Source: Thiohalocapsa sp.
Lineage (GTDB): Bacteria > Pseudomonadota > Gammaproteobacteria > Chromatiales > Chromatiaceae
Direction: 5' to 3'
Length of the DNA: 47,914 bases
NCBI RefSeq assembly: GCF_022340605.1
Contig: NZ_JAJDNQ010000074.1
Span: 1-47,914, forward strand
The notes under the pieces are model-generated. The model was not told the origin of the DNA and did no database searches. It saw only the letters and a list, made by a program, of their open reading frames with translations. Below, in pieces: positions 4,832 through 24,200 of this stretch. Every line of letters begins with the position of its first letter. The first letter of the stretch is position 1. The position numbers and the translations under genes are program-made.

Positions 4832-4925
4832 GCAATGACAATCTCTGCGCTATGCAAACGCCGATTCTCGTGGTTGCTCAAATCGGCGCTGTCGCAAGGG
4901 TCGCATAACAGAGGTGGGGACTTCC

Positions 4926-6017: not shown

Positions 6018-6964
6018 TCGACCTCTCCACGTCGAAGGTGCTCATCACCGGCGTCAATGACATGATCGGTCTGCACGTCCTGACCGCGCTGAAGCGGAGA
6101 GGCGCCAAGGTCTTGGGCATCGGCGAGTTGGGCAGCGATCTGGGCTCCTTGCGCTACCTGGACAACCAGATTGAGCACTTTCGCCCCGACGTGGTGTTCT
6201 TCATCCCGTCCGATCGCCACGGTATTGCCGTGCACCGGCGCTATCCAGGCACGGTCTATTACGACAGCATGATCGTTTGCTCCCACCTGCTGGAAGCCGC
6301 GCGCAAGGCTGGAGTGCGTAAGGTCGTCAATGTCATGTCCAACTGTGTCTATCCGTTCAATGCGCCGATCCCGCACCGGGAGGAGGACATCTGGACGGGA
6401 TTGCCTGAGGAGAGTTTGATACCCCACGCCATGGCGCGGCGGTTGTCGCTGGTGCAGGCCGGTGCGTATGCTCAGCAATTCGGCATGCAGACAGCCTCAC
6501 TGGTGTTGGCCAGCGTCTTTGGTCCGCACGACAATTTCGACCCCGCAACTGCGCAGGTCGCGGCTTCGATGATCAACCGCTTTGTCACCGCGGCACGCGA
6601 GGACCGCGAGCAGGTCGTTTGTTGGGGAAGTGGCCGGCCGACCCGCGAACTGATCTACGTGGATGATGCGGTGCATGGCATCTTGGCCGCCGCGATTTAC
6701 TACGAATCCGCGGAGCCACTCAATATCGGCACCGGCGTTGAGGTGTCCATCAGAGAGCTAACGGAGGTGGTCGCGCGGCGAGCGGGATATGCCGGAAAGG
6801 TGACCTGGGATACGTCGAAGCCGGATGGGCGCGCGCGCGTCTGTCTGGACAATGCGCGGATGCGCGCGGAGTTGCCCTCATGGCAAATGCGCAGCCTGGA
6901 CGAGGGCATGGCTCAAACGGTGCGTTGGTTTGTTGACAGCGATCATCGCACCGCAGGACATTGA
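6014..6964 (+). CDS. NAD-dependent epimerase/dehydratase, GDP-fucose-synthase-like, altered active site
   Basis: A 316-residue extended SDR that aligns by eye with GDP-L-fucose synthase: VLITG start, the NVMSNCVYP strand (compare GSSCIYP), and a nucleotide-binding end with GTG, then VDDAVHGI. Two family hallmarks are changed. The YxxxK catalytic pair, expected at the PYAxAK position, reads PHAMAR (Tyr to His, Lys to Arg; codons CAC and CGG near 6425-6440). The Gly-rich loop reads TGVNDMIG, with Asp where the middle Gly is usual. The substrate-side regions are intact. It may be a non-redox sugar-binding partner, an epimerase using other residues, or a decayed enzyme. Coupling to the aminotransferase gene argues that it is expressed. 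The ATG overlaps the preceding stop. Confidence 0.75.
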   Translation: MIDLSTSKVLITGVNDMIGLHVLTALKRRGAKVLGIGELGSDLGSLRYLDNQIEHFRPDVVFFIPSDRHGIAVHRRYPGTVYYDSMIVCSHLLEAARKAGVRKVVNVMSNCVYPFNAPIPHREEDIWTGLPEESLIPHAMARRLSLVQAGAYAQQFGMQTASLVLASVFGPHDNFDPATAQVAASMINRFVTAAREDREQVVCWGSGRPTRELIYVDDAVHGILAAAIYYESAEPLNIGTGVEVSIRELTEVVARRAGYAGKVTWDTSKPDGRARVCLDNARMRAELPSWQMRSLDEGMAQTVRWFVDSDHRTAGH

Positions 6965-7059
6965 GACCCCAGTGCGAGACCGGGCAGAGCCAGCGCTTCT
7001 GGCGGGTCTTGGCTAGCCGTATGCACCAGCAAGTAATGTCGGCAGGGTAGGCGGCCAGC

Positions 7060-8082
7060 ATGAGCGTGGACTCGCGCAAGGCATTTCAGACCGGGCTTGG
7101 CTTGCTGGCCAGCGCCGTGTTCCTGTGGTTGGCTTTTCGTGGTGTTGATCCAGCCGGGCTGCTGGACGTTCTGACCCATGCCGACCTGAGCGCGGTCGTG
7201 TTGGCGGCCCTGTTCGAGATTCTGGCCCTTTGGTTTCGCGCCATGCAATGGGGAATTCTCCTCGGCAACCTCGGCACCATCTCGGTCGGTCCGCTGTTTC
7301 GCGCCACGCTCATCGGTTACATGATCAACTTCGTGATGCCGATCAGAGTGGGTGAAGTTGCGCGCGCGCAAGTATTGGGCAAAGAGACGGGCTTGAGCAG
7401 AATGAGCATATTCGGCACGGTGGTTGCCGAGCGGGTGCTGGATGCCCTGGCGATTCTGCTCATCGCACTGCTGTGGTTCATGCTGGGTGCGCTACCCGGT
7501 GATGGTGCGCAATTGTCCAGCACCGTCACCGCCGCGATGCTGGGACTGGCGTTGCTGGTGGTGATCGTGATGGGGGGCCTTTGGGTGCTGGTGCGGCACA
7601 CGGATCGGCTAATGGCGGTGGTGTCCTCGGTCCTCGGGCTGGCCTCGAAGCGACTTGCAGGCGAGGTGCGCTGGCGCCTGGAGCTATTGGCAGTCGGATT
7701 TGCGCCGTTACGGGACCGCGGCGGCTACCTGCGCCTGGGCTTGCACTCGGTTGTCATTTGGGGTCTCTCCGTGGGTGCGGTCCGGGTGCTTGCTGCCGGG
7801 CTGGGCATGCCGCTGTCTCTGGAGCAGGCGTCTTTCGTGCTGGTTGCGCTGGCGTTGGGCGTCAGCGTGCCGTCGGGTCCCGGATTCGTCGGCACTTTTC
7901 ACTTCGCGGTCGTGCTCGCGCTCGAGGCGTATGGAATCGATTCTTCCGGCGCGCTGGGCTACGCCATCCTCCTGCACGCCGTCAGCACGCTGCCGATCAT
8001 TGCGCTGGGGCCGCTTGCGCTCTGGCAACAGCATCTCAGTGTCGGCGGCGTATTGCAGGAGCCGCCGTCGGACCGTCAATAG
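7060..8082 (+). CDS. Flippase-like integral membrane protein (LPG synthase TM / UPF0104 family)
   Basis: A 340-residue polytopic protein with about eight hydrophobic segments, of the family that includes the membrane part of lysylphosphatidylglycerol synthase, YbhN and archaeal AglD. The family signature is visible near residues 86-105: NFVMPIRVGEVARA, with the conserved Asn, Pro, Arg, Gly-Glu. A second conserved piece near residue 268 reads SVPSGPGFVGTFH. Members often sit beside polyprenol-phosphate glycosyltransferases and are thought to help lipid-linked sugars cross the membrane; that role is inferred. It is followed after 37 bp by such a glycosyltransferase, in line with the idea. Confidence 0.82.
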   Translation: MSVDSRKAFQTGLGLLASAVFLWLAFRGVDPAGLLDVLTHADLSAVVLAALFEILALWFRAMQWGILLGNLGTISVGPLFRATLIGYMINFVMPIRVGEVARAQVLGKETGLSRMSIFGTVVAERVLDALAILLIALLWFMLGALPGDGAQLSSTVTAAMLGLALLVVIVMGGLWVLVRHTDRLMAVVSSVLGLASKRLAGEVRWRLELLAVGFAPLRDRGGYLRLGLHSVVIWGLSVGAVRVLAAGLGMPLSLEQASFVLVALALGVSVPSGPGFVGTFHFAVVLALEAYGIDSSGALGYAILLHAVSTLPIIALGPLALWQQHLSVGGVLQEPPSDRQ

Positions 8083-8119
8083 CAATCTCAGACCCAGCCC
8101 CTTGGCCAAGGTTGTCCAC

Positions 8120-8836
8120 ATGCAGGAACTCTCAGTCGTCATTCCCACCTTCAACGAGCGTGACAACATCCAAACTCTTGTACCCGCGGTGCTGGCGGTG
8201 TTCGCCGACCACGACATCGACGGCGAGATCGTCGTGGTGGATGACAACAGCAACGATGGCACCATCGCGGTTGTGCGCGCCTTGGAACGTGAGCACTCCG
8301 CGGTGCATTTGCTGCTCCGAGAAGGGCCAGCCAGCCTGTCGCGCGCGTGGCTCGAGGGGTTTGAGGCGGCGTCCAAGGCGAACATCGTCTGCATCGACGC
8401 CGACCTTTGCCACGACCCGAAGCTCTTCCCGCTGATGCTGGAAAGGCTGAACTCCTGCGATGTCGTGATCGGCTCGCGCTACCTCGCGGACGCCACCAGT
8501 GGAGAGGGCAAGTCGATCGCTGCAAAGCTGGCGAGCAAGCTGGGGCAATACGCCAATCGCATCTTCCTCGGCATGAGTGAGACGGACAGTTCGCACAGCT
8601 TCCGCATGTTCAGGAAGTCGGTTTTCGACGCGATCAAAGGGCAGATGCGCAGCGAAGGCAATGTGTTTCTGATCGAGTTCCTGCTCCGCGCCAAGCGCAA
8701 TGGTGCCGGCGTCTCCGAGGTGCCCATCGTTTACGGCGAGCGCACCTACGGCGAGACCAAGCTGCGGGTTGGCAAAGAGTCGCTTCGGTATCTGCGCTTC
8801 CTGTTCAAGTCGGTTCTAATGGGCCAGCGGGCATGA
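8120..8836 (+). CDS. Polyprenol monophosphate glycosyltransferase (GT2, DPM1-like)
   Basis: A 238-residue GT2 enzyme of the dolichol-phosphate-mannose-synthase type, which moves a sugar from a nucleotide to a polyprenyl phosphate on the cytoplasmic side. The markers are VIPTFNERDNI at the start, VVDDNSNDGT near residue 40, the DADLCHDP metal site near residue 93, and the terminal YGERTYGETKL block typical of this family. A longer open frame extends upstream but overlaps the flippase gene in another frame; the ATG at 8120 matches the family start. It has no C-terminal membrane helices, so it is the soluble bacterial form. Its stop overlaps the start of the GT39 gene (ATGA), so the two are coupled. 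This is the expected pair, because GT39 enzymes use polyprenyl-phosphate sugars. Confidence 0.88.
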   Translation: MQELSVVIPTFNERDNIQTLVPAVLAVFADHDIDGEIVVVDDNSNDGTIAVVRALEREHSAVHLLLREGPASLSRAWLEGFEAASKANIVCIDADLCHDPKLFPLMLERLNSCDVVIGSRYLADATSGEGKSIAAKLASKLGQYANRIFLGMSETDSSHSFRMFRKSVFDAIKGQMRSEGNVFLIEFLLRAKRNGAGVSEVPIVYGERTYGETKLRVGKESLRYLRFLFKSVLMGQRA

Positions 8837-10581
8837 AGGGGCCAATGGCATTTTTTTGGGTCAGGCTCGCGGCGGCGGCACGCTGGAGCCACGCTCCCCT
8901 GTTGGCCCTCGCGGTGATCGTGTTGGTTGCCTGCTTGCGTGTGGCCGCGACCTACCCGGTGTTCTCTCACACCTGGGACGAGCCGTTTCATATCGGCGCC
9001 GGCATGCAATGGCTGCACGACGGATGGGGGCACGATGGAAGATTCGTTCCCATCCACCCACCGCTCGCGGAAACGATGAACGCCGTCGGCGTCAACGCCT
9101 TGGGCATCGATAACATAGCGTACGACGGTAGCAAGTTCTTCGGGTACAAATCGGGTGTCCAGTTGCTGTTCGCCAAAGGCGACTACTGGCGGACGCTGGC
9201 GGCTGCGCGTGCCGGCACTTTGCCGTTCCTGCTGCTGGCCTTGCTTGTCACAGCAATCTGGGCTTGGCGCACTGCCGGCTGGCCGGCGGCACTGTTGGCG
9301 TCGCTGGCCTTGAGCCTGTTACCACCGGTTCTCGCGCATGCAGGTTTTGCGACCGTGGATATGGGGTGCGCGGCGACAGTCGGCGCGGCACTATTGGCCT
9401 TCGCGTATTTTCTGCGAGCACCGAGCGTCTTGCGCGCATTGCTGTTCGGAGCCTCGGCTGGTCTCGCACTTCTGACGAAGTCGTCGGCACTCCCCTTCAT
9501 CGTTGCGGGTGGGGGCCTGATGCTGCTGTTGCACGGCATCCTGGCGTGGCGCAAACGGGGCGCTGCGGGCGGCCCCGTGCCTGCTGCGCGGTTTTGGTTG
9601 CGCTGGCTGGCCGTTGCGGGACTGAGCGGGTTATTGGTGGTCTGGGCCGGTTATGGGTTCGACACGGAGCGGTTCGGCCCGGACATGAGGCCGCATCAAG
9701 ATATCGACGCAGTGCTGGGCTCATCCGGCATTCTGCATCATGCGGCCTATCAGTTGGTTGAAGCAGTGCCGGTGCCGATGCCAAACTTCTTTCGCGCCAT
9801 GCAGGCGGCGTTCGGCAAGGGCAAGAAGGGGCATGAGTCATATTTTCTGGGTGCGGTGTCCTGGCATGGCTCCGCCCTTTATTTCCCGGTCATGTTGGCC
9901 GTCAAGTTGCCGCTGGCCTTTCTGCTGTTGCTGCTCATCGGCTCGGTGTATGTGGCGGCCGACTTGGTGAGCGACCGCACGGACGGCGGGTGCGAAGCGG
10001 CCCTTGCGTTGGCGGCGGCGCTTGGCATCCTGGCCGTCGGCATGGCCGCGGGTGTCACCAATGGCCTGCGGCAGCTGTTATCCATCATGCCGCTATTGGC
10101 CGTTGTTGCCGGATATGGTGCTGCGCGCCTGCTGCGAGTCCGAGGCGGATGGCGTCGGGCGGCGCGGACGGGCGTGGTCGCGCTGTTCGCTTGGTTGGGC
10201 GGGGTATCGGTCATGGCCCACCCGGACTACCTGGCCTGGTTCAATCCACTGGCCGGGGAGCATCCCGAGGAGATCGCGGTGGACAGTGATCTGGATTGGG
10301 GGCAGGACTTGGCCCGTCTGGGGCCGCTCCTGGAGTCGCTCGGGGTGGATCACGTCTGGATGCAGTACAACGGGAGCCTCGGTACGCCCTTGGAGCGTTT
10401 CGGTCTGCCGGCCTTTGATGTCTTGCCACCCAATCAGCGGGTCACGGGTTGGGTGGGCATCAGCGTGTTCAATCTCAAGCTGGGAACGCGCGAGCCACCC
10501 TATGATCAATATGCCTGGCTGCTGGATTACGAGCCGGTGGCTCGCGCAGGCTCCTCGATCTGGGTTTATCACGTGGATTGA
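8833..10581 (+). CDS. GT39/ArnT-like membrane glycosyltransferase
   Basis: A 582-residue protein with a hydrophobic N-terminal anchor, then a long extracytoplasmic loop holding HTWDEPFHIGAG (the Asp-Glu pair is the catalytic acidic site of the PMT/ArnT family) and IHPPLAETM. About ten further membrane segments and a periplasmic C-terminal tail follow. Such enzymes transfer a sugar from polyprenyl phosphate to protein, lipid A or another acceptor on the outer face of the inner membrane. The gene overlaps the polyprenyl-phosphate glycosyltransferase by four bases, so donor synthesis and use are co-translated. The C-terminal tail contains DSDLDWGQDL, a motif common in this branch. The acceptor is not deducible. 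Confidence 0.85.
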   Translation: MKGPMAFFWVRLAAAARWSHAPLLALAVIVLVACLRVAATYPVFSHTWDEPFHIGAGMQWLHDGWGHDGRFVPIHPPLAETMNAVGVNALGIDNIAYDGSKFFGYKSGVQLLFAKGDYWRTLAAARAGTLPFLLLALLVTAIWAWRTAGWPAALLASLALSLLPPVLAHAGFATVDMGCAATVGAALLAFAYFLRAPSVLRALLFGASAGLALLTKSSALPFIVAGGGLMLLLHGILAWRKRGAAGGPVPAARFWLRWLAVAGLSGLLVVWAGYGFDTERFGPDMRPHQDIDAVLGSSGILHHAAYQLVEAVPVPMPNFFRAMQAAFGKGKKGHESYFLGAVSWHGSALYFPVMLAVKLPLAFLLLLLIGSVYVAADLVSDRTDGGCEAALALAAALGILAVGMAAGVTNGLRQLLSIMPLLAVVAGYGAARLLRVRGGWRRAARTGVVALFAWLGGVSVMAHPDYLAWFNPLAGEHPEEIAVDSDLDWGQDLARLGPLLESLGVDHVWMQYNGSLGTPLERFGLPAFDVLPPNQRVTGWVGISVFNLKLGTREPPYDQYAWLLDYEPVARAGSSIWVYHVD

Positions 10582-14199: not shown

Positions 14200-15102
14200 T
14201 CAGGCTTGATCCATGTGCTCCAAGAGGTTGTCGAGGTCATTCTCCAGACGCTCCAATCCCCAAGGCCGGCGGAAGGAGAAGATGCGGACCCGTTTCGCGA
14301 TCACGCTGCACGCTTGCAGGTGCTCCGCGGACAGTTCCAACTCGCGCAGCAACTCCCATCGGTAGGTCTGCGCACGGATGAGGTCGATCGCGGTGTAACC
14401 CCTTACCCGCTCGATCAACGGCTGTTCCGCCGAGGCGCGCTCCAGCAGATAGATACCGCGCAAGGGAAGTGGCCTGCCGTGAAAGCCTTCGGTCAAGCGG
14501 ATATGGTACTTATCGGCGCGGCTGAAATCCCGGGTCAGTTCTTGGTGATCCATGCCGAAGTGCTCCAGGGCATCCCGCCAGAGCTTGATGCGCGGAAAAC
14601 CAGGATGCAGCAGAACCTGTTGGGCTTCGGGCACCACCAACCCCACATCATCGGTCAGTACCGGCAGACCGCGCCGGTGCAGCGCGGCGGCGAGGGTGGA
14701 CTTGCCGGCGCCCGATTCGCCGCAGAATGCGTACGCGCCGCTGCCAATTGCGACGGCGCTCACGTGGAGCGGCAGCAACCCCCGCTGGTGGACTGCGACG
14801 GCTAGTCCCAGGGCGAGAAGCCAGACGCGCACATCACCATGCCGCGCGTCGGGACAAGGATCGACGAGAATGCGGCTCCCCCGTAGGATGCGGTAATGGC
14901 CAACACCCTCGATTGAGAACTGAACGACCCCGGGCGTGATCTGCAGGTGGGGCTCGGAGAGGTTCGCGTTTTCGAGCTCGGGGGTGAGGGTTGCGAGTTC
15001 GATCTCAATGTCCGCGGGATCGGCGCCCGATATAGCGACCAGTTCGGGCAGTGCGAGCGCGGATGCGACGGTGAGACCAAACACCCTGTAGCGATAGGTC
15101 AT
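14200..15102 (-). CDS. HPr-kinase-like protein of a RiPP/HPr-rel-A type locus
   Basis: A 300-residue protein whose C-terminal half is an HPr-kinase-type P-loop domain: FCGESGAGKST near residue 127, followed by the LTDDV strand that carries the catalytic acid. The N-terminal half is a variable beta-rich domain. Proteins of this type (HprK-related kinase A, and the kinases of some lasso peptide clusters such as paeninodin) sit next to PqqD-like proteins and phosphorylate a peptide or small target rather than HPr. It is divergent from the PqqD-like gene, with 126 bp between them. The ATG at 15102 starts with MTYRYRVFGL, the conserved beginning. A TTG at 15135 with AGGA upstream is the alternative. 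Expected substrate: the precursor peptide, by inference. Confidence 0.75.
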   Translation of the reverse strand: MTYRYRVFGLTVASALALPELVAISGADPADIEIELATLTPELENANLSEPHLQITPGVVQFSIEGVGHYRILRGSRILVDPCPDARHGDVRVWLLALGLAVAVHQRGLLPLHVSAVAIGSGAYAFCGESGAGKSTLAAALHRRGLPVLTDDVGLVVPEAQQVLLHPGFPRIKLWRDALEHFGMDHQELTRDFSRADKYHIRLTEGFHGRPLPLRGIYLLERASAEQPLIERVRGYTAIDLIRAQTYRWELLRELELSAEHLQACSVIAKRVRIFSFRRPWGLERLENDLDNLLEHMDQA

Positions 15103-15228
15103 CGGGGAATGCCTTAGGCCAGGCAGCAGGGACAACAGGGATCCTGCGTCGCCTATGCCATCATGTTACGGGCTATGCCGGCGCAATAGACAGCAATTTG
15201 CGAATGTGCTCAATCAGGGGATACAGGT

Positions 15229-15567
15229 ATGAACACCAGCGGCTCCACCCCGATCGCGAATTTGACGCTCGAGACCGTGGTTCGGCAGCATCCGGATTTG
15301 GTCGCCGCCGACGCCGACGGTGAGGTGCTGATGATGCACGTTGATTCCGGCAACTATTTCGGCCTTAACGAAGTCGCCAGTTTCGTCTGGTACCAGCTTG
15401 AGTTGCCTCGGACAGTCGGTGATTTGTGCTCCCGCATCCGATTGGAATTCGATGTCGAGGAGGAGCGGTGCATCATGGATTTGTTGGCGCACCTGCGGGA
15501 TAGCATCGCCGACGGGCTGGTCGAAGTCGTTTCTTCAGAGGATCAAAGCGCCGCGACGCAAGACTGA
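15229..15567 (+). CDS. PqqD-family peptide-recognition protein (lasso B1-like RRE)
   Basis: A 112-residue protein with the winged-helix PqqD fold, the RiPP recognition element that binds leader peptides and presents them to modifying enzymes. The typical pattern is visible: DGEVLMMHVDSGNYFGLNEVASFVW (strands and first helix, residues 26-50), then a C-terminal helical part with CIMDLLAHLRDSIADGLVE. It lies between the kinase and the nucleotidyltransferase genes, the arrangement known for HPr-rel-A systems and for some lasso clusters (B1). It starts the plus-strand run pqqD-nucleotidyltransferase-ABC-B2-SET. It is slightly longer than a standalone lasso B1 (about 80-100), with extra acidic residues at the end. 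Confidence 0.82.
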   Translation: MNTSGSTPIANLTLETVVRQHPDLVAADADGEVLMMHVDSGNYFGLNEVASFVWYQLELPRTVGDLCSRIRLEFDVEEERCIMDLLAHLRDSIADGLVEVVSSEDQSAATQD

Positions 15568-15611
15568 CCCGTCATGGCGCTGGTGTCGAGCACTGACATT
15601 CCCGGCACCAG

Positions 15612-16934
15612 ATGCTGAGAAGCCGACTCGTTTCCGTTCCGATCAGAGCAATGCTGCCAGCCGCACGAGCGACGCCCGATCAAGACGACCTCGTGTCGAT
15701 TCTGCTCGGCTGCCTCCACACCGATGCCGGTCGGCCGGACGCTGTGGCCCTTGCTTGCCTGGGCGCAACAGATTGGGAGCGGCTCGGAGATCTGGCGGCG
15801 CAAGGCAAGGTCGAGTTCCAACTCTATGAGCGATTGATGCAGCCGAGGCTGAGGCCGTCGGTGGCGCCCCCGCTGTTGGACCGCTTGCGCGCGTCGGCAC
15901 AGGCGCAGGCATTGAAGGAACTCGGTTTGCGAGCCACCCTCGTCGAGATACTGCGCGCGTGTGCAATAGCAAGCCTGCCCGTGATGACGCTGAAGGGCAT
16001 GCATCTGGCCCATACCGTCTACAACAGCGCATCGGCGCGGGGCATGGCGGACATCGACCTGCTGTTCAGGCGGAGCGACATGGCGCGGGCGACCGCGGTG
16101 TTCAAGTCGCTCGGTTACCACGTCCCGCATGACGCCAGCAATCTGATCGATCTGGCGCCGGCGAACCATGAATATGCGTTGCTGCATCCCCGCTTTGGCG
16201 CCACTGTCGATGTGCACTGGGCTTTGACTGATCCGCGGATGGAGGCAGCCATCGACGAGGCCGCATTTTGGCACCGCGCCTGTGCGGTGACGATCGGTGC
16301 AGAGTCCGCATTGGGCCTGGCACGGGAGGACTTGATCGCGTACCTGTGCTTTCACGCCAGCCATCATCACTACTTCGGCACCGTCGGGCTGCGGCCTTTC
16401 GTTGACGTTGCTCGGCTCTGCGCAGGGCCATCTCCACCGGATTGGGCGATCCTTGCCGAACGGACACGGGCGTGGGGCTGGGGGCGCGGCGTCTATCTCA
16501 CCCTGTCGATGGTGCGGCGATACCTTGGCGCCGCGATTCCTGAGCAGGCACTGGGCGGGATCGCCGATGCCCCAGCAGATCTGGAACAGATGCACGCCGC
16601 CGCTCTGGCATCCATTTTTCTCGATATGGCATCGCGCGACCGGGTCGGGCGCAATGTCCTGCGGGTGTGGACAAGTGGCTCCAATCGTGAACGGCTTGGT
16701 TTGTTGGCGCATCGCCTGTTTCCGCCCCGCATCGAACTGGTCGAGGAATTCGGCCTGACCGAAGCGCAGGCATTGCCGCCGGCATTCTGGCTGCACGTGC
16801 GCAGGATAGGGCGGTTATTTCGGCGCCACGGCCCCAAGGTGTGGAACATATGGCGGGGCGATTCGGCTCGTCTGGCCGAGCTCACGAGCCAACGTGTGCT
16901 TATCGAGTGGCTTGATTCCACCGACCATGGCTGA
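15612..16934 (+). CDS. Nucleotidyltransferase-family protein (NTP_transf_5)
   Basis: A 440-residue protein of the uncharacterised nucleotidyltransferase family. The diagnostic block is VMTLKGMHLAHTVYN, then RGMADIDLLFR (residues 125-155), where the Asp-x-Asp pair binds metal and nucleotide, and then a third acidic strand in TVDVHWAL near residue 200. The rest is helical. Such proteins occur in lasso clusters with kinases (pseudomycoidin type), where they add to a phosphorylated C-terminus, and in HPr-rel-A loci. The role here is inferred to be tailoring. Its stop lies inside the ABC transporter gene start (eight-base overlap), so the two are coupled. The start could instead be ATG 15651. Confidence 0.75.
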   Translation: MLRSRLVSVPIRAMLPAARATPDQDDLVSILLGCLHTDAGRPDAVALACLGATDWERLGDLAAQGKVEFQLYERLMQPRLRPSVAPPLLDRLRASAQAQALKELGLRATLVEILRACAIASLPVMTLKGMHLAHTVYNSASARGMADIDLLFRRSDMARATAVFKSLGYHVPHDASNLIDLAPANHEYALLHPRFGATVDVHWALTDPRMEAAIDEAAFWHRACAVTIGAESALGLAREDLIAYLCFHASHHHYFGTVGLRPFVDVARLCAGPSPPDWAILAERTRAWGWGRGVYLTLSMVRRYLGAAIPEQALGGIADAPADLEQMHAAALASIFLDMASRDRVGRNVLRVWTSGSNRERLGLLAHRLFPPRIELVEEFGLTEAQALPPAFWLHVRRIGRLFRRHGPKVWNIWRGDSARLAELTSQRVLIEWLDSTDHG

Positions 16935-18735
16935 GCCGGCGCTGACGCGTGGCGATCGGCATTCGCTCGTCGCGTTGGCGGGAGCGCGCAGCCTATTCGT
17001 CGGTGTGCCTTCCCGGACGTGGTTGCTGTTCGGGCTCGTGACGGCGGCCGCGAGTATCACGGAGGGCGTTGGCCTGTTACTGCTCGTGCCGCTGCTGCAA
17101 CTCGTGCAGGGTGTGGGAGGCGGCGCCGATGATGGCCACTTTGCGGTGTGGCTTAAGTCGGTGCTCGGCTCCCTCGGCCTGCCGCTGGGTATTGAAATCC
17201 TGTTGCTGCTGTTTCTGGTTCTGGTCATCGCGCGGGCGGCCGTGCAGTACACACAGGCGTTGCTTGCTGCGCGAATTCAGCATCAGCTGGTGGACGGATT
17301 GCGTGGACGTGTCTTCCAGGTGTTGCTCGGGGCGGAGTGGCGTTGGGTGGCGCGCCGCCGTCGTGCCGACATCATCAGCACATTGTTGAATGATATCGAG
17401 CGCATTGGCGTCGGGCTGCATTTCGGCTTTCAGGTCCTAGTGGCGTTGGTTACGATGCTGGTGTACCTGGTCGCGGCATTCACACTGGACGCCGGACTGA
17501 CCCTGATCGCCGTCATCGGTGGCGGGGTGCTGCTGGTCGCCGTGCTTGGGCACCAGCGCACTGCAGTGCGTCTGGGGTGGCAGTTGAGCGATGCGCATCG
17601 GGACATGACCGGTGTGCTGGAGGGCAGCTTGAGCAACCTCAAGCTGGCAAAGATCCTCGGCACCGAGCGGCGGCAATTGGATGTCTTTGTGAGCGTGTTG
17701 ATGCACCTGCGCGAGCAGGAATTGCGCTTCATCGCAAACACGAGTCGGACGCGCGCCTTGTTGCAGGTGATCGGCGCGGTGCTCGTGGCGGGATATCTCT
17801 ACGTCGGCCTGGCGATGCTGCAGACACCCGTTGCGGAACTGATGGTCTTGGTCCTGATCGCCGCGCGGCTCATTCCGATCCTGTCCGGCGCATTGCAGCA
17901 GTCGGCGCATGTTCTGCACGCCTTGCCGGCGGCCACCGAGACCGCGCAATTGATGGCTGCTGCCGAGCGGCACGCCGAGCCAGCCTTGGTGGACCCGGCA
18001 CCGGCACCGGCGCCGTCGCCACGACGGCACATCTGTCTCGACCGGGTCTCGGTGCGGTACGAGGGGCGGAGCCGGCCGGCCCTGGATGAGGTTTCCATTT
18101 GCTTTCCGGTGCGTACCACAACGGCGATCATCGGTACGTCGGGGGCTGGCAAGAGCACATTGGCCGATGTGCTCATGGGGTTGCTCAAGCCCGACGCTGG
18201 CGCGCTGCGGATCGATGGTGTTTCCCTGTCGGAGTCGCAGCGCTTGCGTTGGCGCTCCGCGGTCGCCTACGTGCCCCAGGAGACCTTCCTATTCAACGAC
18301 AGCATCCGTGGCAATCTGCTTTGGGGGGACCCGAACGCGACCGACGGGGCGTTGATTGCGGCGTTGCGGGAGGCCGCGGCGGAATTCGTCCTGGAACTGC
18401 CCGATGGGCTCGATACGGTGGTGGGTGATGCCGGACTGCGCCTATCCGGTGGCGAGCGCCAGCGCATCGCGCTCGCCCGGGCGCTGCTCAAGCGCCCTGC
18501 GTTGATCCTGCTGGACGAGGCCACCAGTGCGCTCGATCTATCGACGGAGGCCCAGGTGCGCCGCGCACTCCGACAACTGCACGGCAGTACCACCGTGGTC
18601 ATGATCGCGCACCGGATGGCGACACTGGCGCATGCCGACCAGGTCGTGGTCTTGGATGCGGGGCGGGTCGCCCGCGCCGGGACGTGGGAGGAAATGCGCA
18701 CGGCGGCGGTCAGCATCGATCATGTCGTGGCATGA
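16927..18735 (+). CDS. ABC exporter, fused permease-ATPase (lasso D-type)
   Basis: A 602-residue half-transporter. It has an N-terminal six-helix membrane domain (residues about 20-340) and a C-terminal ATPase with Walker A GTSGAGKST near residue 404, Q-loop YVPQETFLFND, signature LSGGERQR near residue 507, Walker B ALILLDEAT, and the switch His in MIAHRMATL. There is no N-terminal C39 peptidase, so leader removal must be done elsewhere, which fits the separate B2 protease directly downstream. It would work as a homodimer in the inner membrane to export the finished peptide. It overlaps the nucleotidyltransferase gene upstream and the B2 gene downstream (ATGA). The ATG at 16927 is the first sensible start. 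Confidence 0.88.
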   Translation: MAEPALTRGDRHSLVALAGARSLFVGVPSRTWLLFGLVTAAASITEGVGLLLLVPLLQLVQGVGGGADDGHFAVWLKSVLGSLGLPLGIEILLLLFLVLVIARAAVQYTQALLAARIQHQLVDGLRGRVFQVLLGAEWRWVARRRRADIISTLLNDIERIGVGLHFGFQVLVALVTMLVYLVAAFTLDAGLTLIAVIGGGVLLVAVLGHQRTAVRLGWQLSDAHRDMTGVLEGSLSNLKLAKILGTERRQLDVFVSVLMHLREQELRFIANTSRTRALLQVIGAVLVAGYLYVGLAMLQTPVAELMVLVLIAARLIPILSGALQQSAHVLHALPAATETAQLMAAAERHAEPALVDPAPAPAPSPRRHICLDRVSVRYEGRSRPALDEVSICFPVRTTTAIIGTSGAGKSTLADVLMGLLKPDAGALRIDGVSLSESQRLRWRSAVAYVPQETFLFNDSIRGNLLWGDPNATDGALIAALREAAAEFVLELPDGLDTVVGDAGLRLSGGERQRIALARALLKRPALILLDEATSALDLSTEAQVRRALRQLHGSTTVVMIAHRMATLAHADQVVVLDAGRVARAGTWEEMRTAAVSIDHVVA

Positions 18736-19259
18736 CTTCGCCGGCAGGTCCAGCGGTGCTGCCGAATAAGTTGCGCAAATTGCGCCGGGAGCCCGGATTC
18801 GTTTGGCTCTGGTTGGGCCCGACCTGGGCCCTGTTAGGCTTGAGCCGCGGCCTGATTGCCCTGGTGCCTTTCCGGCGGCTTGCGCCGTTGCTCGGTACGA
18901 ACGTCGGCGTGGAGCCTTGGGTGCCGCTGGTGAGTGCTGTCCAGGCCGTGCGTGCGCGGTTGATCGGTCGGTCCGTCCAGATTGCGGCCCGCTATACGCC
19001 CTGGGAGTCCAACTGCTTTCCGCAGGCGATTACTGCGCGGCTGCTGCTCGGACTCTATCGAATTCCTTTCGCTCTCTACCTCGGTCTGGCGAGAGATCGT
19101 GACAACAATGATCTCAGCGCACACGCCTGGGTGACTGCCGGTCCGATGCATGTCGCCGGCGGCGGCGCCGACTTTGAGCGCTTCACGGTGGTGGGGTGTT
19201 TCGTTGCACCGGTACTGGCCAAGCGCATGGGGTTGCCGGTGCCACGCATGCCCGGGTGA
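18732..19259 (+). CDS. Lasso-peptide B2-type transglutaminase-like protease
   Basis: A 175-residue protein of the lasso B2 family (transglutaminase-like cysteine peptidase), which cuts the leader from the precursor with help of B1. The family block is clear: SNCFPQAITARLLLGLYRIP with the nucleophile Cys near residue 95, then SAHAWV with the catalytic His near residue 131, followed by the G-x-x Asp/Glu region. An N-terminal hydrophobic stretch (LWLGPTWALLGLSRGLIALV) is also typical. The start codon overlaps the ABC transporter stop (ATGA), so the exporter and protease are co-translated. Together with the PqqD-like protein and the asparagine-synthase-like protein it completes a lasso B1/B2/C set. 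Confidence 0.85.
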   Translation: MTSPAGPAVLPNKLRKLRREPGFVWLWLGPTWALLGLSRGLIALVPFRRLAPLLGTNVGVEPWVPLVSAVQAVRARLIGRSVQIAARYTPWESNCFPQAITARLLLGLYRIPFALYLGLARDRDNNDLSAHAWVTAGPMHVAGGGADFERFTVVGCFVAPVLAKRMGLPVPRMPG

Positions 19260-19284
19260 TGAAGATTCTCGCGGAGGCGGTCAC

Positions 19285-20406
19285 TTGACGGATTCCCATT
19301 TGGTCCGGTCCGGCTCACGGATCATCAGGCAACTCCTCATCGAGATCGCCCGCATTGTGCGCGGTGAAGGGGGCAGCGTGCATCCAGGCGTGCGGTTGGT
19401 CGAGACGGCCGGGAACTTCAGCGTTCATTGTGACCCCACGGCGGGTGCCGTCGGGCAGCCCCTATTCGCAATTCCTCGAGGCCTGCTGATTCCCCTGGAG
19501 GGTCTTGTCTGGAGCGAGCGCACGGATCGGATCGTGCTGACCGGAACACCGCAGGGGCTTTCGTCAACGCAGCAGCAGCTACTGGAAATGCATGTCGATC
19601 TCTACAACGCGGCGAACAAGCTGGACTGGTGGAGTTGCCGGCATCCGCGACGCGTAGTGATCGAGGACAGCAGGGTTCGGCAGGCACTCGCCGAGATTCG
19701 CCCGGATCTCGCTCAGCAGGAACCGGTAACCGCCGCGGCCGGATTCCTGCAAACCAGGGCGTTCTGGGTTCGGCACAAAGGCGACGCTTCCCGGGGAGTT
19801 CTGATGCCGTTGAGCGATTTGCTCAATCACCACCATTGCGGCAGCACGATCGACCTCGACGCGTCGACGCTGTGCGTGGCGGTCTCCCAGCCGGGGCTTG
19901 GCGCCGAATGCTTCGTTGATTACGGGGGCCGCCGCGATGTTCTGGGCCTGGCCCTGCATCATGGCTATGTCGACCGTACCACGCCATTTGCACGCAGCGC
20001 GGCTTTGCGTCTGCGAATGCCTGAGCTCGGTGAGATCGCAGTGTTGGCGCAGACACGCAAGCCGGCGCACCCGACAGACCCGCCCGAGGTGACCCTTGGG
20101 CAGCATCGCCTCGAGATCAGTCATCTCTATTGCGATCTGGAACACCCGGCGCGGGCCCGTGCCGCGTTGCGTTTGGCGCTGTTGCGCGCCGCGCGTGTTG
20201 CCGGCCTGGCTGGGGACAAAGCCGAACATGCCGTCAACCGGGCCATCGGTGAGATAGCGGTAGGCAACCTGGACCTACTGGCGAACCTGGCGCGCGCGTG
20301 TCTGAGCGCCAGCTCGACGAAGGCAGCGACGGACGTGTTGGCAGCAGCCGCCGCACGACAAGCGCAAATTATCCAATCCGTGCTGGTAAGAGATTCCACT
20401 CCATGA
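19285..20406 (+). CDS. SET-domain protein in RiPP locus
   Basis: A 373-residue protein. A SET-type methyltransferase core is suggested by LMPLSDLLNHHHCG (residues about 172-185; the LSDLLNH block binds S-adenosylmethionine), then GAECFVDYGGRRD near 207-219 and LHHGYVD near 226. This order matches Rubisco-LSMT-like SET proteins with a helical C-terminal half for substrate binding, here residues 240-373. The TTG start at 19285 has an ideal GGAGG site seven bases upstream; the frame has no ATG nearby. SET enzymes methylate Lys (or His) side chains, so a methylated precursor or partner is one possibility. The gene lies 25 bp after B2 on the same strand. The family call is by motif only and is less sure than the neighbours. 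Confidence 0.6.
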   Translation: MTDSHLVRSGSRIIRQLLIEIARIVRGEGGSVHPGVRLVETAGNFSVHCDPTAGAVGQPLFAIPRGLLIPLEGLVWSERTDRIVLTGTPQGLSSTQQQLLEMHVDLYNAANKLDWWSCRHPRRVVIEDSRVRQALAEIRPDLAQQEPVTAAAGFLQTRAFWVRHKGDASRGVLMPLSDLLNHHHCGSTIDLDASTLCVAVSQPGLGAECFVDYGGRRDVLGLALHHGYVDRTTPFARSAALRLRMPELGEIAVLAQTRKPAHPTDPPEVTLGQHRLEISHLYCDLEHPARARAALRLALLRAARVAGLAGDKAEHAVNRAIGEIAVGNLDLLANLARACLSASSTKAATDVLAAAAARQAQIIQSVLVRDSTP

Positions 20407-20549
20407 TTACGAATTGGCGCAGGAGTGAATCTTTATGCCACGTTAGCGAAAGCATTACAGCGCCGGGCGGGTGCGCCGTCGCAAGCGATGCATCTGCGAA
20501 TGCCAAGAAGGCACGATGTGCTCGACGATTCGCTACGTGGCGGATGTGA
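20403..20549 (+). CDS. Tiny ORF coupled to the SET gene (weak)
   Basis: A 48-residue frame whose ATG overlaps the SET stop (ATGA). It contains TAPGGCAVASD followed by a basic Ala/Arg tail and four Cys. Gly-Gly followed by Asp at position 8 could mimic a lasso core, but no YxxP leader motif is present and the Thr is at -3. It may be chance. Confidence 0.25.
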   Translation: MITNWRRSESLCHVSESITAPGGCAVASDASANAKKARCARRFATWRM

Positions 20550-20630
20550 CAGAAGGTTCACTGCCTGCTAGCGCACTGAACCCATCACCTCATCACCTGC
20601 GACCGCCGAACACTGATCTGTAGCCTCGGC

Positions 20631-20816
20631 TTATGAACGCACCAAAGACATACCCACGCCCGCTTCAAAGCCAGCATTGTTCTTGCCGGCCTGTGTCGAA
20701 GCGGCGACCGCGATGCGCTGATGCTTCGGCGTGCGGTACTGGCGCTTGCAAATTCGGGCGGCCCCCGTCGCCTGCGTCACCGCGTTCTGGTCGTGTTGCG
20801 TGGAGATCTTTCCCAT
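20631..20816 (-). CDS. Candidate lasso precursor peptide
   Basis: A 61-residue ORF on the minus strand between the SET and ATP-grasp genes. Its composition (five Lys, many Gln and Asn, GC-rich third positions) is unlike chance frames here. The leader holds QYRTPKHQ, that is YxxP, the motif bound by lasso B1 proteins, about twelve residues before the proposed cut. If cleavage is after Thr-Gln (Thr at -2, the lasso rule), the core is AGKNNAGFEAGVGMSLVRS: 19 residues with Ala1 and Glu9, giving a nine-membered ring as in Ala1 lassos of the caulonodin VI type. Bulky Met14, Leu16 and Arg18 could lock the tail. Weak points: only a weak ribosome site, it lies 250 bp after the ATP-grasp stop, and Leu is missing from the YxxPxL position. 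Confidence 0.45.
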   Translation of the reverse strand: MGKISTQHDQNAVTQATGAARICKRQYRTPKHQRIAVAASTQAGKNNAGFEAGVGMSLVRS

Positions 20817-21066
20817 TTCCGAATCCCAGGCAGGTGGTTGACAAACCCATTTTCGAAAGAGAGTTTATCCGAGAGCACAACAGAGCTCTAACAGTATTCC
20901 TCTGATTAGGTGATCGGTAGATCCTTTATGGTCGCGCAATGGCAGGCTTTAGGGGAGCGTTGCTCAGCCGTGTGAAATTACGCGAGACCAGGCGACCGGG
21001 AGGCCGCGGGGCGTATTCCAGAGCTGTTCGGCGCGACCCACGCGTGGCGCCGGAGCACTGGCGACA

Positions 21067-22338
21067 TCAGGCGGCGGCCAGGAAGGCGCCATGAATGATC
21101 TGGGGTATCGTTGTCCCCCAGCCGCTATTGCCCTCCAACAGGAAGGGGCCGGTCGGGGTCAGAATCCAGTCCCAGGCGATGGCCCAGAGATCCGGGAAGC
21201 GCGCATGTGCCCGATGACTGGCGGCGACCAGCGCCGACCAGTCCGGGAGCGAAAAGTCATCAGGCACCCGCAACCTGATCTTTGCGCTGCTCTGGCGGTC
21301 GCGGGAGAACAAATACGCATCCCTTGGCCACTCCAGCACTCTGCCGACACGCGGGTCGATGGGCAGGATGCAGTAGCGCGTGCGGTCGCTCCCCGGGGCC
21401 ACGCCACTTGGGATTTCAAGCAAGGCACAGAGGCATGTGGCCTCGGTCCCTCGCCACTGACTGATGTAACGGACGCCGATCGCCGCATCGTCGTCAGTCA
21501 ATGGCTGAAGGGCGCGATGATTGGTCAGACAGGGCTGTATCAGGGTGTCGCCCAAGGCGTGCAGGTGCTGCCAGGCGTCGTTCACCGCGTCGGTGTCCGG
21601 CAGCATGCGGCCGTCGAGACAGCGTCCCGCGAGCCCCGCCGGAGTCCGCCAGGCGCTGAAGGCACCAATCCCCGCATGGCCCGACCGCGACTTGCAAAAC
21701 ACCCGACCTGGACCTTGCAGCCGCTCCAGCAGGCTGTCTAGGGGCTCGGTTTTCGGCACGCATTGAAGCGTTTCGACCACCGGCACCTGTAATCCCGCGA
21801 GCTCGGCTGCCAGTGCGAGCTTGTCTTGCAACAGGGCGAGGGACGCGGCGCTCGGCCCAGGTGGCGCGCTTCGCCAATGATGGTAGGCGGGTAACTCGTG
21901 CTCGTAGACGTAGTCGAGTGCGCGCTCCGGGTGCCGGACCAGGCCGAAGCGATAGCAGTCGATCGGTGGAATGCACGACCCGAGCGCCAAGCGCAGCACA
22001 CGTAGCAGTTGGCGCGACTGACCGATCCCCCAAAAGCCGGCGGCGTCGGGGCCGAGTCGAGCCACCGTGCGGACGGCGTCTGTCCAGGCGAGGCAGAAGA
22101 TCCATCGCAGCCAGAGCCATCCCTGCACGACCAGCCAGGCCGAGCGCGGCCAGCGGGCGCCATTGTGCCACCATAGCGCGCGATGCCGGCGGACAGGTGC
22201 CGGCGGCTGCCACAAGAGATAGCGCCAGCCGAGGAGTCCGTGTGGCAACCGCCGCCACCAAAGCTCCCGCTGTGCGATCCGTCCCAATCGCCCGAGGCGA
22301 TCTAGTGGGCCTCGCCCTTCAGCCATGCATCCAGCCAA
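21067..22338 (-). CDS. ATP-grasp protein, sugar-transfer-associated type
   Basis: A 423-residue protein. The C-terminal block WAIAWDWILTPTGPFLLEGNSGWGT is typical of the sugar-transfer-associated ATP-grasp family, where Glu-x-Asn binds Mg-ATP. Upstream, RVFCKSRSGHAGIGAF is the nucleotide-binding loop with its Lys. The N-terminal 130 residues are basic and Trp-rich, including a hydrophobic part (LVVQGWLWLRWIFCLAW). ATP-grasp enzymes join a carboxylate to an amine through an acyl phosphate, so this one could make an amide or peptide link. It starts inside the asparagine-synthase-like gene (37-base overlap), so the two are translated together. It is not part of the standard lasso set. The exact reaction is unknown. 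Confidence 0.72.
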   Translation of the reverse strand: MAGCMAEGRGPLDRLGRLGRIAQRELWWRRLPHGLLGWRYLLWQPPAPVRRHRALWWHNGARWPRSAWLVVQGWLWLRWIFCLAWTDAVRTVARLGPDAAGFWGIGQSRQLLRVLRLALGSCIPPIDCYRFGLVRHPERALDYVYEHELPAYHHWRSAPPGPSAASLALLQDKLALAAELAGLQVPVVETLQCVPKTEPLDSLLERLQGPGRVFCKSRSGHAGIGAFSAWRTPAGLAGRCLDGRMLPDTDAVNDAWQHLHALGDTLIQPCLTNHRALQPLTDDDAAIGVRYISQWRGTEATCLCALLEIPSGVAPGSDRTRYCILPIDPRVGRVLEWPRDAYLFSRDRQSSAKIRLRVPDDFSLPDWSALVAASHRAHARFPDLWAIAWDWILTPTGPFLLEGNSGWGTTIPQIIHGAFLAAA

Positions 22339-24200
22339 CGTATTGCACGCACGTTATTGTCGAACATGTATCCGAAGTATTCGGCACCGTCGCCCTGGAC
22401 AGCGGCCTTGATTTGCCGCCGCAGCTTGGCGCGGTCGATGATGCCGGCGAGTGTCGGATGCAGGTCCGCCTCCAACTCGCGCAACCGCTCGGCCGCCGCC
22501 GCCATTCTCGGCAGCCTGAGCTGATCGTGGCGCGCGTCCTGACCCATGTCCTTGGTCGGCTTCCACGCGACCATTGGTGGTACGACGCCATCGATTGCAC
22601 GTCGGTGCAAATAGCGTCCGATACCCTCGGGGCCAAACTTCTCCAGGCTGGGGGTGGACAGGTACTGCTGCACCAGTCTGGCGTCACAGAGCGGCCAGCG
22701 ATATTCAACGCCGAAGCTGCGCGCTAGTAGGGAGCAGGCCTCGAATCGGCACGCCATGTAGGACATACGCAGCAGCCCATCCAGAATGAAGGCGTTGATG
22801 CGCCGGTAGGGGGCGTCGTACCGCGCGAACTCGATATAGGCGCGATGCAGGTCGAGGTGCGCAATCACCTCAGGACGCAGCAATTGGTATGGCCATCGCG
22901 CCTCCCAGGCGTCCAGAACGAAGCGATTGTAGGCGGGGGAGCGCCGACCGATAGTGCTTGCCTTGACCAGGCGCAGCGCCCGGCGTAGCGGGTTGCCGGG
23001 CAGGATGTCCCAGAGGCTCGCGTAGTCGCGGCTGTCGAGTAGCTCGTAGCGGAGCAGGTTGCCCGGATTCGTGACGACCTCGTCGCCGCCGAACCCTGAG
23101 AACAGCGTCCGAATTCCGCGCTTCGCACATTCGGCATAGAACAGCAGGTGATCCGTGGCGATGCCGCCCTCTTCTGGATAGCCGATGCTCCGGAGTGCGC
23201 GGTCGATGCGCTCACTCGTATGCTCGGAGGCGCCGTGGGCCGTGATGACGTAATTGTGCGTTACGCCTTTGGCCCGGCTCGTCTCCAGGATAAACCCGGG
23301 CTCCTGCTCGCAGGTCGCGAAGCCGAAGCTGTGCAGACGGTCTCCCGGCTCACCGAGAAAATGGGCCAGAAAGGCGGTTACCGTGGCGGAGTCGATGCCG
23401 CCACTGTTCTCTGCGCCCAGCGGGAAATCGCTCGGCATGCGGCAGCGAATCGCTTCTTCGAGTACCGACCGGTAGGCCGCGACCCAGCGCGGATCTCTGC
23501 GGCGCGCGGCGGGCGCATCGTCGCGCCACGCATGATACGCCCGCAGGCGCTGGTGGCCGGCGGCGTCCAGGATCAGACAGTGGCCCGGCAACAGCTTGAG
23601 AATTTCTCGATATGCGGTCTGCCGGTCGCTATAAGACAGCTGCAACAAGTACCGCGCCATCCAATCCGTGTCGGGCGTGAGGTCGAGGTCGCCGAGGAAA
23701 CGCAACGCGGCGACGCTGGTGGCGAACGTGAAGCCGCCCGCATGCTGCACGTAATAGAGCGGCTTGACCCCGAGTGGGTCCCGGGCGAGGAACACACTGC
23801 GCCGCAGCGGGTTCAGGACGGCCAACGCGAAGTCGCCAAGCAAGTGCTCGGGCAGTGCCTCGCCCCAGCGCCGCCAGGCTGCCAGCACGAGGTCTGCGTC
23901 GGTGGGCGGGTGGGGTGCCGCCGTCGCGTCCCGGCCGAGGCGGGCGATCAGGTCGTCCCGGTTGTCCAGTCTGCCCCAGAACGTGAGGACAACGCCGGTG
24001 GCCGGGCAGCGCCGCGGCAGCTCGGTGTCACGATTCGCAGCATGGTTGAACACGCGCTGCTCGTAGAGCCAGGCGCCCGTGCCGGCAAACAGGCCGTCCA
24101 GATCGGAGCGGCAGTCGGCGGCAAGCGCCGCGTTGAGGCGCTCCCGATCGGGCCCCGCGGGAGCGTTGTCGTGGCGCTGGAGGACGCGACCAATGAACAT
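22302..24200 (-). CDS. Asparagine-synthase-like macrolactam synthetase (lasso C-like)
   Basis: A 632-residue AsnB homologue. The N-terminal Ntn-type part keeps the fold blocks (GRLDNRDDL, FLARDPLGVKPLYY) but starts MFIGRV and lacks the catalytic Cys2 of glutamine amidotransferases, so it should not release ammonia from glutamine. The C-terminal synthetase domain has the pyrophosphate loop ENSGGIDSATV near residue 266 and LFSGFGGDEVV near residue 365. It should therefore adenylate a carboxylate and let an amine attack: lasso C proteins use this to join the core N-terminus to Asp or Glu. Genes for asparagine synthase in exopolysaccharide loci look similar, so the lasso role rests on the B1, B2 and exporter neighbours. 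It leads the minus-strand pair with the ATP-grasp gene. Confidence 0.82.
   Translation of the reverse strand: MFIGRVLQRHDNAPAGPDRERLNAALAADCRSDLDGLFAGTGAWLYEQRVFNHAANRDTELPRRCPATGVVLTFWGRLDNRDDLIARLGRDATAAPHPPTDADLVLAAWRRWGEALPEHLLGDFALAVLNPLRRSVFLARDPLGVKPLYYVQHAGGFTFATSVAALRFLGDLDLTPDTDWMARYLLQLSYSDRQTAYREILKLLPGHCLILDAAGHQRLRAYHAWRDDAPAARRRDPRWVAAYRSVLEEAIRCRMPSDFPLGAENSGGIDSATVTAFLAHFLGEPGDRLHSFGFATCEQEPGFILETSRAKGVTHNYVITAHGASEHTSERIDRALRSIGYPEEGGIATDHLLFYAECAKRGIRTLFSGFGGDEVVTNPGNLLRYELLDSRDYASLWDILPGNPLRRALRLVKASTIGRRSPAYNRFVLDAWEARWPYQLLRPEVIAHLDLHRAYIEFARYDAPYRRINAFILDGLLRMSYMACRFEACSLLARSFGVEYRWPLCDARLVQQYLSTPSLEKFGPEGIGRYLHRRAIDGVVPPMVAWKPTKDMGQDARHDQLRLPRMAAAAERLRELEADLHPTLAGIIDRAKLRRQIKAAVQGDGAEYFGYMFDNNVRAIRWLDAWLKGEAH

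Follow-up and report, generated by a model that had tools for sequence, protein, structure and literature searches.

A predicted kinase-bearing lasso-peptide gene cluster in Thiohalocapsa with an added ATP-grasp ligase

The stretch analysed here, called the window, is an entire contig of 47,914 nucleotides (NZ_JAJDNQ010000074.1) belonging to the 4.77 Mb assembly GCF_022340605.1 of Thiohalocapsa sp., a purple sulfur bacterium. Positions 14200 to 24200 hold genes that probably form a lasso-peptide cluster with split B1 and B2 proteins, a kinase, a candidate precursor at 20631-20816 and an added ATP-grasp ligation step, as predicted from the genes alone. All eight open reading frames (ORFs) claimed for this locus in an earlier reading of the sequence, the original prediction, are present where it placed them; the precursor ORF on the minus strand was overlooked there. 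The features are listed below, with profile scores in bits.

14200..15135, minus strand: HPr-kinase-like protein, the predicted lasso kinase (K), with P-loop GESGAGKST; assigned from matches below cut-off and from homologues
15229..15567, plus strand: PqqD-like leader-binding protein B1; PF05402 (PqqD, Pfam), 53.7 bits, cut-off 23.4
15612..16934, plus strand: nucleotidyltransferase of family NTP_transf_5 (N); PF14907, 173.6 bits, cut-off 31.2
16894..18735, plus strand: ABC exporter (D), membrane and ATPase domains fused; PF00664 and PF00005 (ABC_membrane and ABC_tran, Pfam)
18684..19259, plus strand: leader peptidase B2; NF033537 (lasso B2), 82.2 bits, cut-off 33, and PF13471 (Transglut_core3), 74.6 bits, cut-off 26
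19303..20406, plus strand: SET-like protein, a putative lysine methyltransferase; motif NH...GAECFVDYG
20631..20816, minus strand: candidate precursor A, 61 residues, leader ..KRQYRTPKHQRIAVAASTQ, core AGKNNAGFEAGVGMSLVRS
21067..22338, minus strand: ATP-grasp ligase; PF14397 (Pfam), 40.1 bits, cut-off 31.4, with a predicted fold and a conserved place beside C
22302..24200, minus strand: lasso-type cyclase C, asparagine-synthetase-like, with an ENSGGIDS loop and without Cys at residue 2

Pfam and NCBIfam profiles uphold the labels first given to the PqqD-like protein, the nucleotidyltransferase, the ABC exporter, B2 and the ATP-grasp protein. B2 passes the curated lasso model NF033537. B1 matches two lasso PqqD models, both below their cut-offs (NF033536 from NCBIfam gives 55.5 bits, cut-off 80). 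C matches Asn_synthase (PF00733, 104.9 bits, cut-off 21) and GATase_7 (68.7 bits, cut-off 25), and its best NCBIfam model is the lasso cyclase NF033535 at 237.2 bits, followed by the asparagine synthase model TIGR01536 at 156.2. Residue 2 of C is Phe; the glutaminase Cys2, needed for glutamine use, is absent, as expected in a peptide-bond-forming cyclase. Because B2 passes its model, C prefers the lasso model, and the candidate precursor is lasso-like with a C-terminal Ser suited to a kinase, the assignment of a lasso-type locus of ribosomally synthesized and post-translationally modified peptides (RiPPs) is supported.

These same scores bear on the idea that the locus serves an exopolysaccharide or exosortase system. 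Matches to HprK_rel_A and to the exosortase amidotransferase model TIGR03108, the description of ATPgrasp_ST as associated with sugar transfer, and upstream window genes read from sequence as sugar genes all lend it something. The HprK_rel_A and TIGR03108 matches fall below cut-off, however (C reaches 127.1 bits with TIGR03108, cut-off 816.9, and is also below cut-off with TIGR01536), whereas B2 exceeds its lasso cut-off, and homologous loci have varied neighbours. That role is very improbable, and it was rejected on the profile scores. C and B2 do not score best in exosortase or exopolysaccharide families beside unconserved neighbours, an outcome that the original prediction had set against itself. 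Its remark that the divided gene direction is unusual does not hold, as relatives' loci are likewise split into divergent runs.

The ATP-grasp protein was modeled with a pLDDT of 71.3. Foldseek, given this model, returned first the graspetide ligase PsnB (E 5.8e-6), then RimK and other ATP-grasp peptide ligases. Enzymes of this kind activate a carboxylate as an acyl phosphate and couple it to an amine or hydroxyl. Searched against the PDB at E values up to 1, a sequence profile of the family did not reach any graspetide synthetase.

Pairing of this ligase with C recurs across distant hosts. Among 93 related genomes, own genome included, C was found at E 1e-60 in two, its own and another Thiohalocapsa genome (G002, 60% identity), and these were also the two with an ATP-grasp match among ten members of the genus. 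A contig scan for the ATP-grasp protein, based on a two-row alignment and two short peptide patterns, matched 165 stretches, of which five were confirmed; with two patterns so short, more distant relatives will have escaped it. The five loci belong to the cyanobacterium Petrachloros mirabilis, Thiohalocapsa (G002), Halochromatium, Sphingorhabdus and Dechloromonas. C lies directly upstream of the ATP-grasp gene in the window, Petrachloros, G002 and Halochromatium. Sphingorhabdus has just the end of C beside its ATP-grasp gene, at the contig start, with another piece of C 3.46 Mb along the contig, and in Dechloromonas C lies near the end of a different contig from the ATP-grasp gene. Thus all six genomes found by the ATP-grasp protein, the window's and the five others, hold a C of one clade, adjoining the ligase gene in five. 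In a tree of 18 C rows these six form a clade with support 97/99, or 100/100 when joined by C of a further genome, G199; three long-branched rows (L006, L040 and L041), short ORFs or ORFs in the wrong frame, fall outside the clade discussed.

G199 came from the opposite direction. Of 369 genomes in a class-wide search with the C alignment, two gave a match at E 1e-80: G199 and the genome of the window itself. About 3.6 kb from C, G199 encodes a remote relative of the ATP-grasp protein, with 26% identity at E 1.5e-19. Since each genome was found by either its ATP-grasp protein or its C, the pairing is established for these genomes and not for every carrier. Among 29 genomes of Petrachloros relatives the ATP-grasp protein was found in one, the source itself, and plasmid searches with the ATP-grasp and C proteins gave no match.

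The accompanying genes vary. HPr-kinase-like genes occur in four of the five ATP-grasp loci and are absent from the 8 kb G002 contig. The same four loci carry sulfotransferases, while the window's run has none; in Dechloromonas an APS kinase stands beside the HPr-kinase-like and sulfotransferase genes. A SAM-methyltransferase-like gene occurs both in G002 and in Halochromatium.

Several features of the related loci were noted separately. Sphingorhabdus C diverges near its end (L042, 12626-14626), with transposase-like ORFs downstream and with cluster pieces and precursor far apart. A stray fragment resembling the C terminus of the ATP-grasp protein precedes a PqqD gene in L020 (3500-3625). The G199 locus (L032, 5888-17649) is RiPP-like, with a kinase, a sulfotransferase (Pfam), C, a tail-collar-like protein, and flavin-halogenase-like, 109-residue, distant ATP-grasp, 2OG-oxygenase-like, ABC and PqqD-like ORFs, most of these labels being read from sequence. 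Proteins read as phage tail-collar-like lie by the clusters of two distant hosts (L026, 15575-16114; L032, 10893-11408). Such proteins were dropped as candidate substrates here, as the window's genome, 87% complete, gave no PF07484 match.

That the ATP-grasp protein is a real added step and no chance neighbor is well supported. This affects the view that it and the SET-like protein are bystanders and that the product is a phosphorylated lasso peptide of the usual kind. For the SET-like gene no second locus was found in 93 related genomes, plasmids and viral contigs, which is what a bystander would show; the sole other trace in the 93 genomes (G036, 39% over 84 residues, with an internal stop) is weak. 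Yet the SET-like gene comes immediately after B2, in one run with it, and the ATP-grasp protein accompanies one C clade in cyanobacteria and in alpha-, beta- and gammaproteobacteria, so that a pair of bystanders is improbable. The claim of new tailoring steps made in the original prediction therefore stands for the ATP-grasp protein by its linkage to the C clade, whereas for the SET-like protein it is plausible by motif, with one locus.

The SET-like ORF is open from 19150, and its true start is uncertain; the GTG at 19303 was chosen. Its protein carries NH and, 30 residues on, YG, with GAECFVDYG at the end. A pattern designed with knowledge of this protein, NH-x(20,45)-GxE-x3-[DHNSTIQ]YG, matches 9 of 30 loci returned by a PF00856 search and none of seven more from that search's list. 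Elsewhere, among 472 ORFs of 120 residues or more from the fetched loci and the window, it matches this protein alone, counted in five overlapping loci. As nothing besides SET loci and this protein matches, and 28 SET loci are missed, the pattern is specific and not sensitive. Other comparisons gave little: the protein has no Pfam match up to E 10 and none in NCBIfam, PF00856 finds a different protein in the window's genome, and PDB sequences yield one chance-like match (E 0.68). An AlphaFold model built without relatives has a pLDDT of 42.7 and matches nothing in Foldseek at E 0.001. Against ORFs of ten SET-bearing loci the best E values are 5.9 by BLAST and 0.86 by phmmer. From its motif, the protein is probably a divergent SET protein.

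The SET-like and ATP-grasp genes are separated by 660 bases. Here, just downstream of the ATP-grasp gene and on the strand of ATP-grasp and C, lies the 61-residue ORF 20631-20816, in which YRTP is followed by Thr-Gln and then the core AGKNNAGFEAGVGMSLVRS, with Glu9, a C-terminal Ser and Thr at -2. Peptides built alike occur at the ATP-grasp loci of Halochromatium (core GGKHRTPFELPDVSSYGPS), Petrachloros (core GTKGLTGPEANPGTGVFDPS) and Dechloromonas (core AGKAVTGPEVTDSVAPS, directly after the ATP-grasp gene). These four were picked by eye or by pattern. A profile of the four then found a fifth in Sphingorhabdus, RPYEKPELMEIVLEDYTE/GKKAITVVETLTLGAAS, far from its cluster, at E 8.8e-4; it is the sole non-member below E 0.01 in ten genomes, the next being at 0.024. 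G002 and G199 were searched as well and yielded no convincing peptide. All five, four of them at ATP-grasp loci, share [YW]xxP, [AG]xK-x5-E (G-K-K in Sphingorhabdus) and a C-terminal Ser, and when the cores are aligned Lys3, Glu9 and the C-terminal Ser are kept in 5/5. The pattern fitted to these features matches once in the window and in none of 150 windows simulated by a first-order Markov model; without the demand for Lys3 it matches in 6 of 150, and without that for Ser in 2 of 150. Across 13 other loci it matches in four, exactly the other members, and in none of the remaining nine.

According to the available text of PMC8498205, HPr kinase homologues phosphorylate the C-terminal Ser of lasso peptides, N enzymes attach hexose to the C-terminal Ser that is the phosphorylation site, and a sulfotransferase has been observed in Firmicutes clusters. 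Kinase action at that residue fits all five cores, which end in Ser. Homologues of the window's kinase occur in L019, L021, L023, L026, L028, L029, L030 and L031.

A pathway can be proposed. Gene content, the repeated pairing of C with the ATP-grasp protein, the shared precursor features and the fold class predicted for the ATP-grasp protein are observed; each reaction, the sequence of reactions and the sites of ATP-grasp and SET action are inferred. B1 would bind the precursor 20631-20816 through its YxxP leader. The HPr-type kinase would then add a phosphate to the core's C-terminal Ser, for the nucleotidyltransferase to extend. The ATP-grasp ligase may next form a further amide, most likely at the Lys3 amine or at the C-terminal carboxylate; Lys3 is proposed as its acceptor because it is kept in five of five cores yet is needless for lasso closure. 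B2 would cleave after Thr-Gln, and C would activate Glu9 with ATP and link it to Ala1, the new N-terminus, to form a nine-residue ring with a ten-residue tail; the ABC protein would export the product. The SET-like protein would N-methylate a Lys; such an enzyme would need Lys or His, and the window core has no His and Lys3 as its only Lys. ATP-grasp and SET-like enzymes may act in succession or compete.

A number of observations weigh against this interpretation. The 237.2 bits of C with NF033535 stay below a cut-off of 525, and the solved structures that C matches are a hydroxyamidotransferase and asparagine synthetases. The HPr-kinase-like label of the original prediction keeps its P-loop GESGAGKST, whereas every profile match of the protein is below cut-off (36.5 bits against a cut-off of 200 for TIGR04352, and 14.9 against 33.3 for Hpr_kinase_C). 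The ATP-grasp model aligns with low Foldseek TM-scores, 0.25 to 0.41 among the 50 matches listed. The window and Sphingorhabdus cores have no acidic residue other than Glu9, so that a second side-chain link from Lys to an acid is not general and the C-terminus or an external amino acid would serve as donor. The precursor pattern was fitted after all five peptides were known, and looser lasso-type patterns are unspecific, one having two matches in the window and another ten. The window leader has YxxP but not the Leu that completes YxxPxL, and upstream no strong ribosome-binding site was seen. Dechloromonas, given a nine-residue ring, has its Thr at -1 rather than -2; Petrachloros carries Ser at -2. 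Published lasso leaders have YxxPxL at -17 to -12 and Thr at -2, or Ile in bsf (PMC10368454, in the portion available).

The most serious alternative is that the cluster is a lasso cluster in which 20631-20816 is not the precursor, the true A being another small ORF or lying elsewhere in the genome. A profile of the other four precursors missed the window peptide in its own genome at E values up to 1; the same profile gave a match in genome G004 at E 0.0018. Pairwise similarity is weak as well, a tblastn search of L028 with the window peptide giving E 0.84, comparable to chance matches, and in Sphingorhabdus the A gene does seem to lie far from its enzymes. With a post-hoc pattern, unspecific looser patterns and this leave-one-out miss, the window peptide is the least certain precursor among the five. 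Nevertheless, it is the sole window ORF that fits a pattern absent from all 150 simulated windows, and its position just downstream on the ATP-grasp/C strand is that seen in Dechloromonas. Its third-position GC of 0.75 is inside the 0.72-0.81 of its neighbors; at the first position, however, GC is lower, 0.59 against 0.62-0.71. We consider a different precursor unlikely, if far from negligible.

A different chemistry is also conceivable, in which the product is no lasso peptide: the ATP-grasp ligase would close a graspetide-like ring between Lys3 and Glu9, and the asparagine-synthetase-like protein would perform another amide step. The retention of both residues in all five precursors and a predicted fold nearest PsnB are consistent with this. 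But lasso models give C and B2 their best scores, a YxxP leader followed by Thr or Ser around -2 is lasso-like, and the failure of the ATP-grasp family profile to reach a graspetide synthetase among PDB sequences further reduces a graspetide-like ring to a slim chance. The predicted lasso cluster resembles graspetide systems (PsnB, microviridin ligases) in having an ATP-grasp ligase beside a RiPP precursor, and differs from them in its lasso-type cyclase, B1 and B2 and in an ATP-grasp protein of PF14397 that is remote in sequence. The pairs of acid with hydroxyl or Lys that mark graspetide cores, beyond those of the lasso ring, are not seen where Glu9 is the sole acid, in the window and Sphingorhabdus.

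Among lasso systems the locus is closest in kind to those of paeninodin (ThcoK), SyanK and pseudomycoidin (with N), where lasso genes are joined by an HPr-type kinase that targets the C-terminal Ser and, in some, by a nucleotidyltransferase, as described in the available part of PMC8498205. Unlike these types, the window adds an ATP-grasp ligase, a SET-like protein and a conserved Lys3. The bsf cluster of Bradymonas sediminis also has B1, B2, C, D, K and N together and a YxxP leader (PMC10368454); it differs in that K acts on Ser3 and Ile stands at -2, and the accessible part of that paper names no ATP-grasp or SET gene. In engineered lasso/graspetide chimeras, reported in the available text of PMC13003496 to bear modifications unseen in nature, lasso and ATP-grasp enzymes likewise act on one peptide; those are man-made, while the pairing here would be natural if the lasso interpretation holds. 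A lasso locus from the same genus (L021, genome G006) also has an HprK-like gene, C, NTP_transf_5, ABC and B2 genes and a classic-looking precursor, WSKPQLLDYGKVADLTE/GGYLNSDAEDTLYTSVA. It differs in that relatives of the ATP-grasp and SET-like proteins were not found in G006 at the limits used and its C falls outside the clade. The L021 precursor, at 2289-2450, lies between kinase and C, with WSKPQLLDYG..T ahead of its core GGYLNSDAEDTLYTSVA.

Literature searches did not find lasso peptide, SET domain and ATP-grasp together, nor lasso peptides with Chromatiaceae. A lasso/ATP-grasp tailoring step was not found described, which is no claim of its absence from print, and none of the matches listed for RiPP tailoring by a SET domain or lysine methyltransferase was relevant by title.

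Lasso peptides are prized scaffolds with a short list of known tailoring. One C clade has an ATP-grasp partner both in cyanobacteria and in three classes of proteobacteria. This suggests a tailoring step whose proposed site, Lys3, can be tested, and five precursor peptides are available for doing so. More speculatively, and with low confidence, the loci may represent a cross-phylum natural lasso family in which the ATP-grasp enzyme makes a second amide at Lys3 or the C-terminus, here combined with a SET-type Lys methyltransferase that is possibly the first on a RiPP. The product would then be a natural lasso peptide bearing the work of a graspetide-like enzyme.

Elsewhere in the window, the ORF at 2594-3526 has no Pfam match. 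It precedes a sugar-like run at 3824-10581, upstream of the cluster, whose genes are read from sequence as glycosyltransferase, aminotransferase and epimerase, possibly a glycan cluster.

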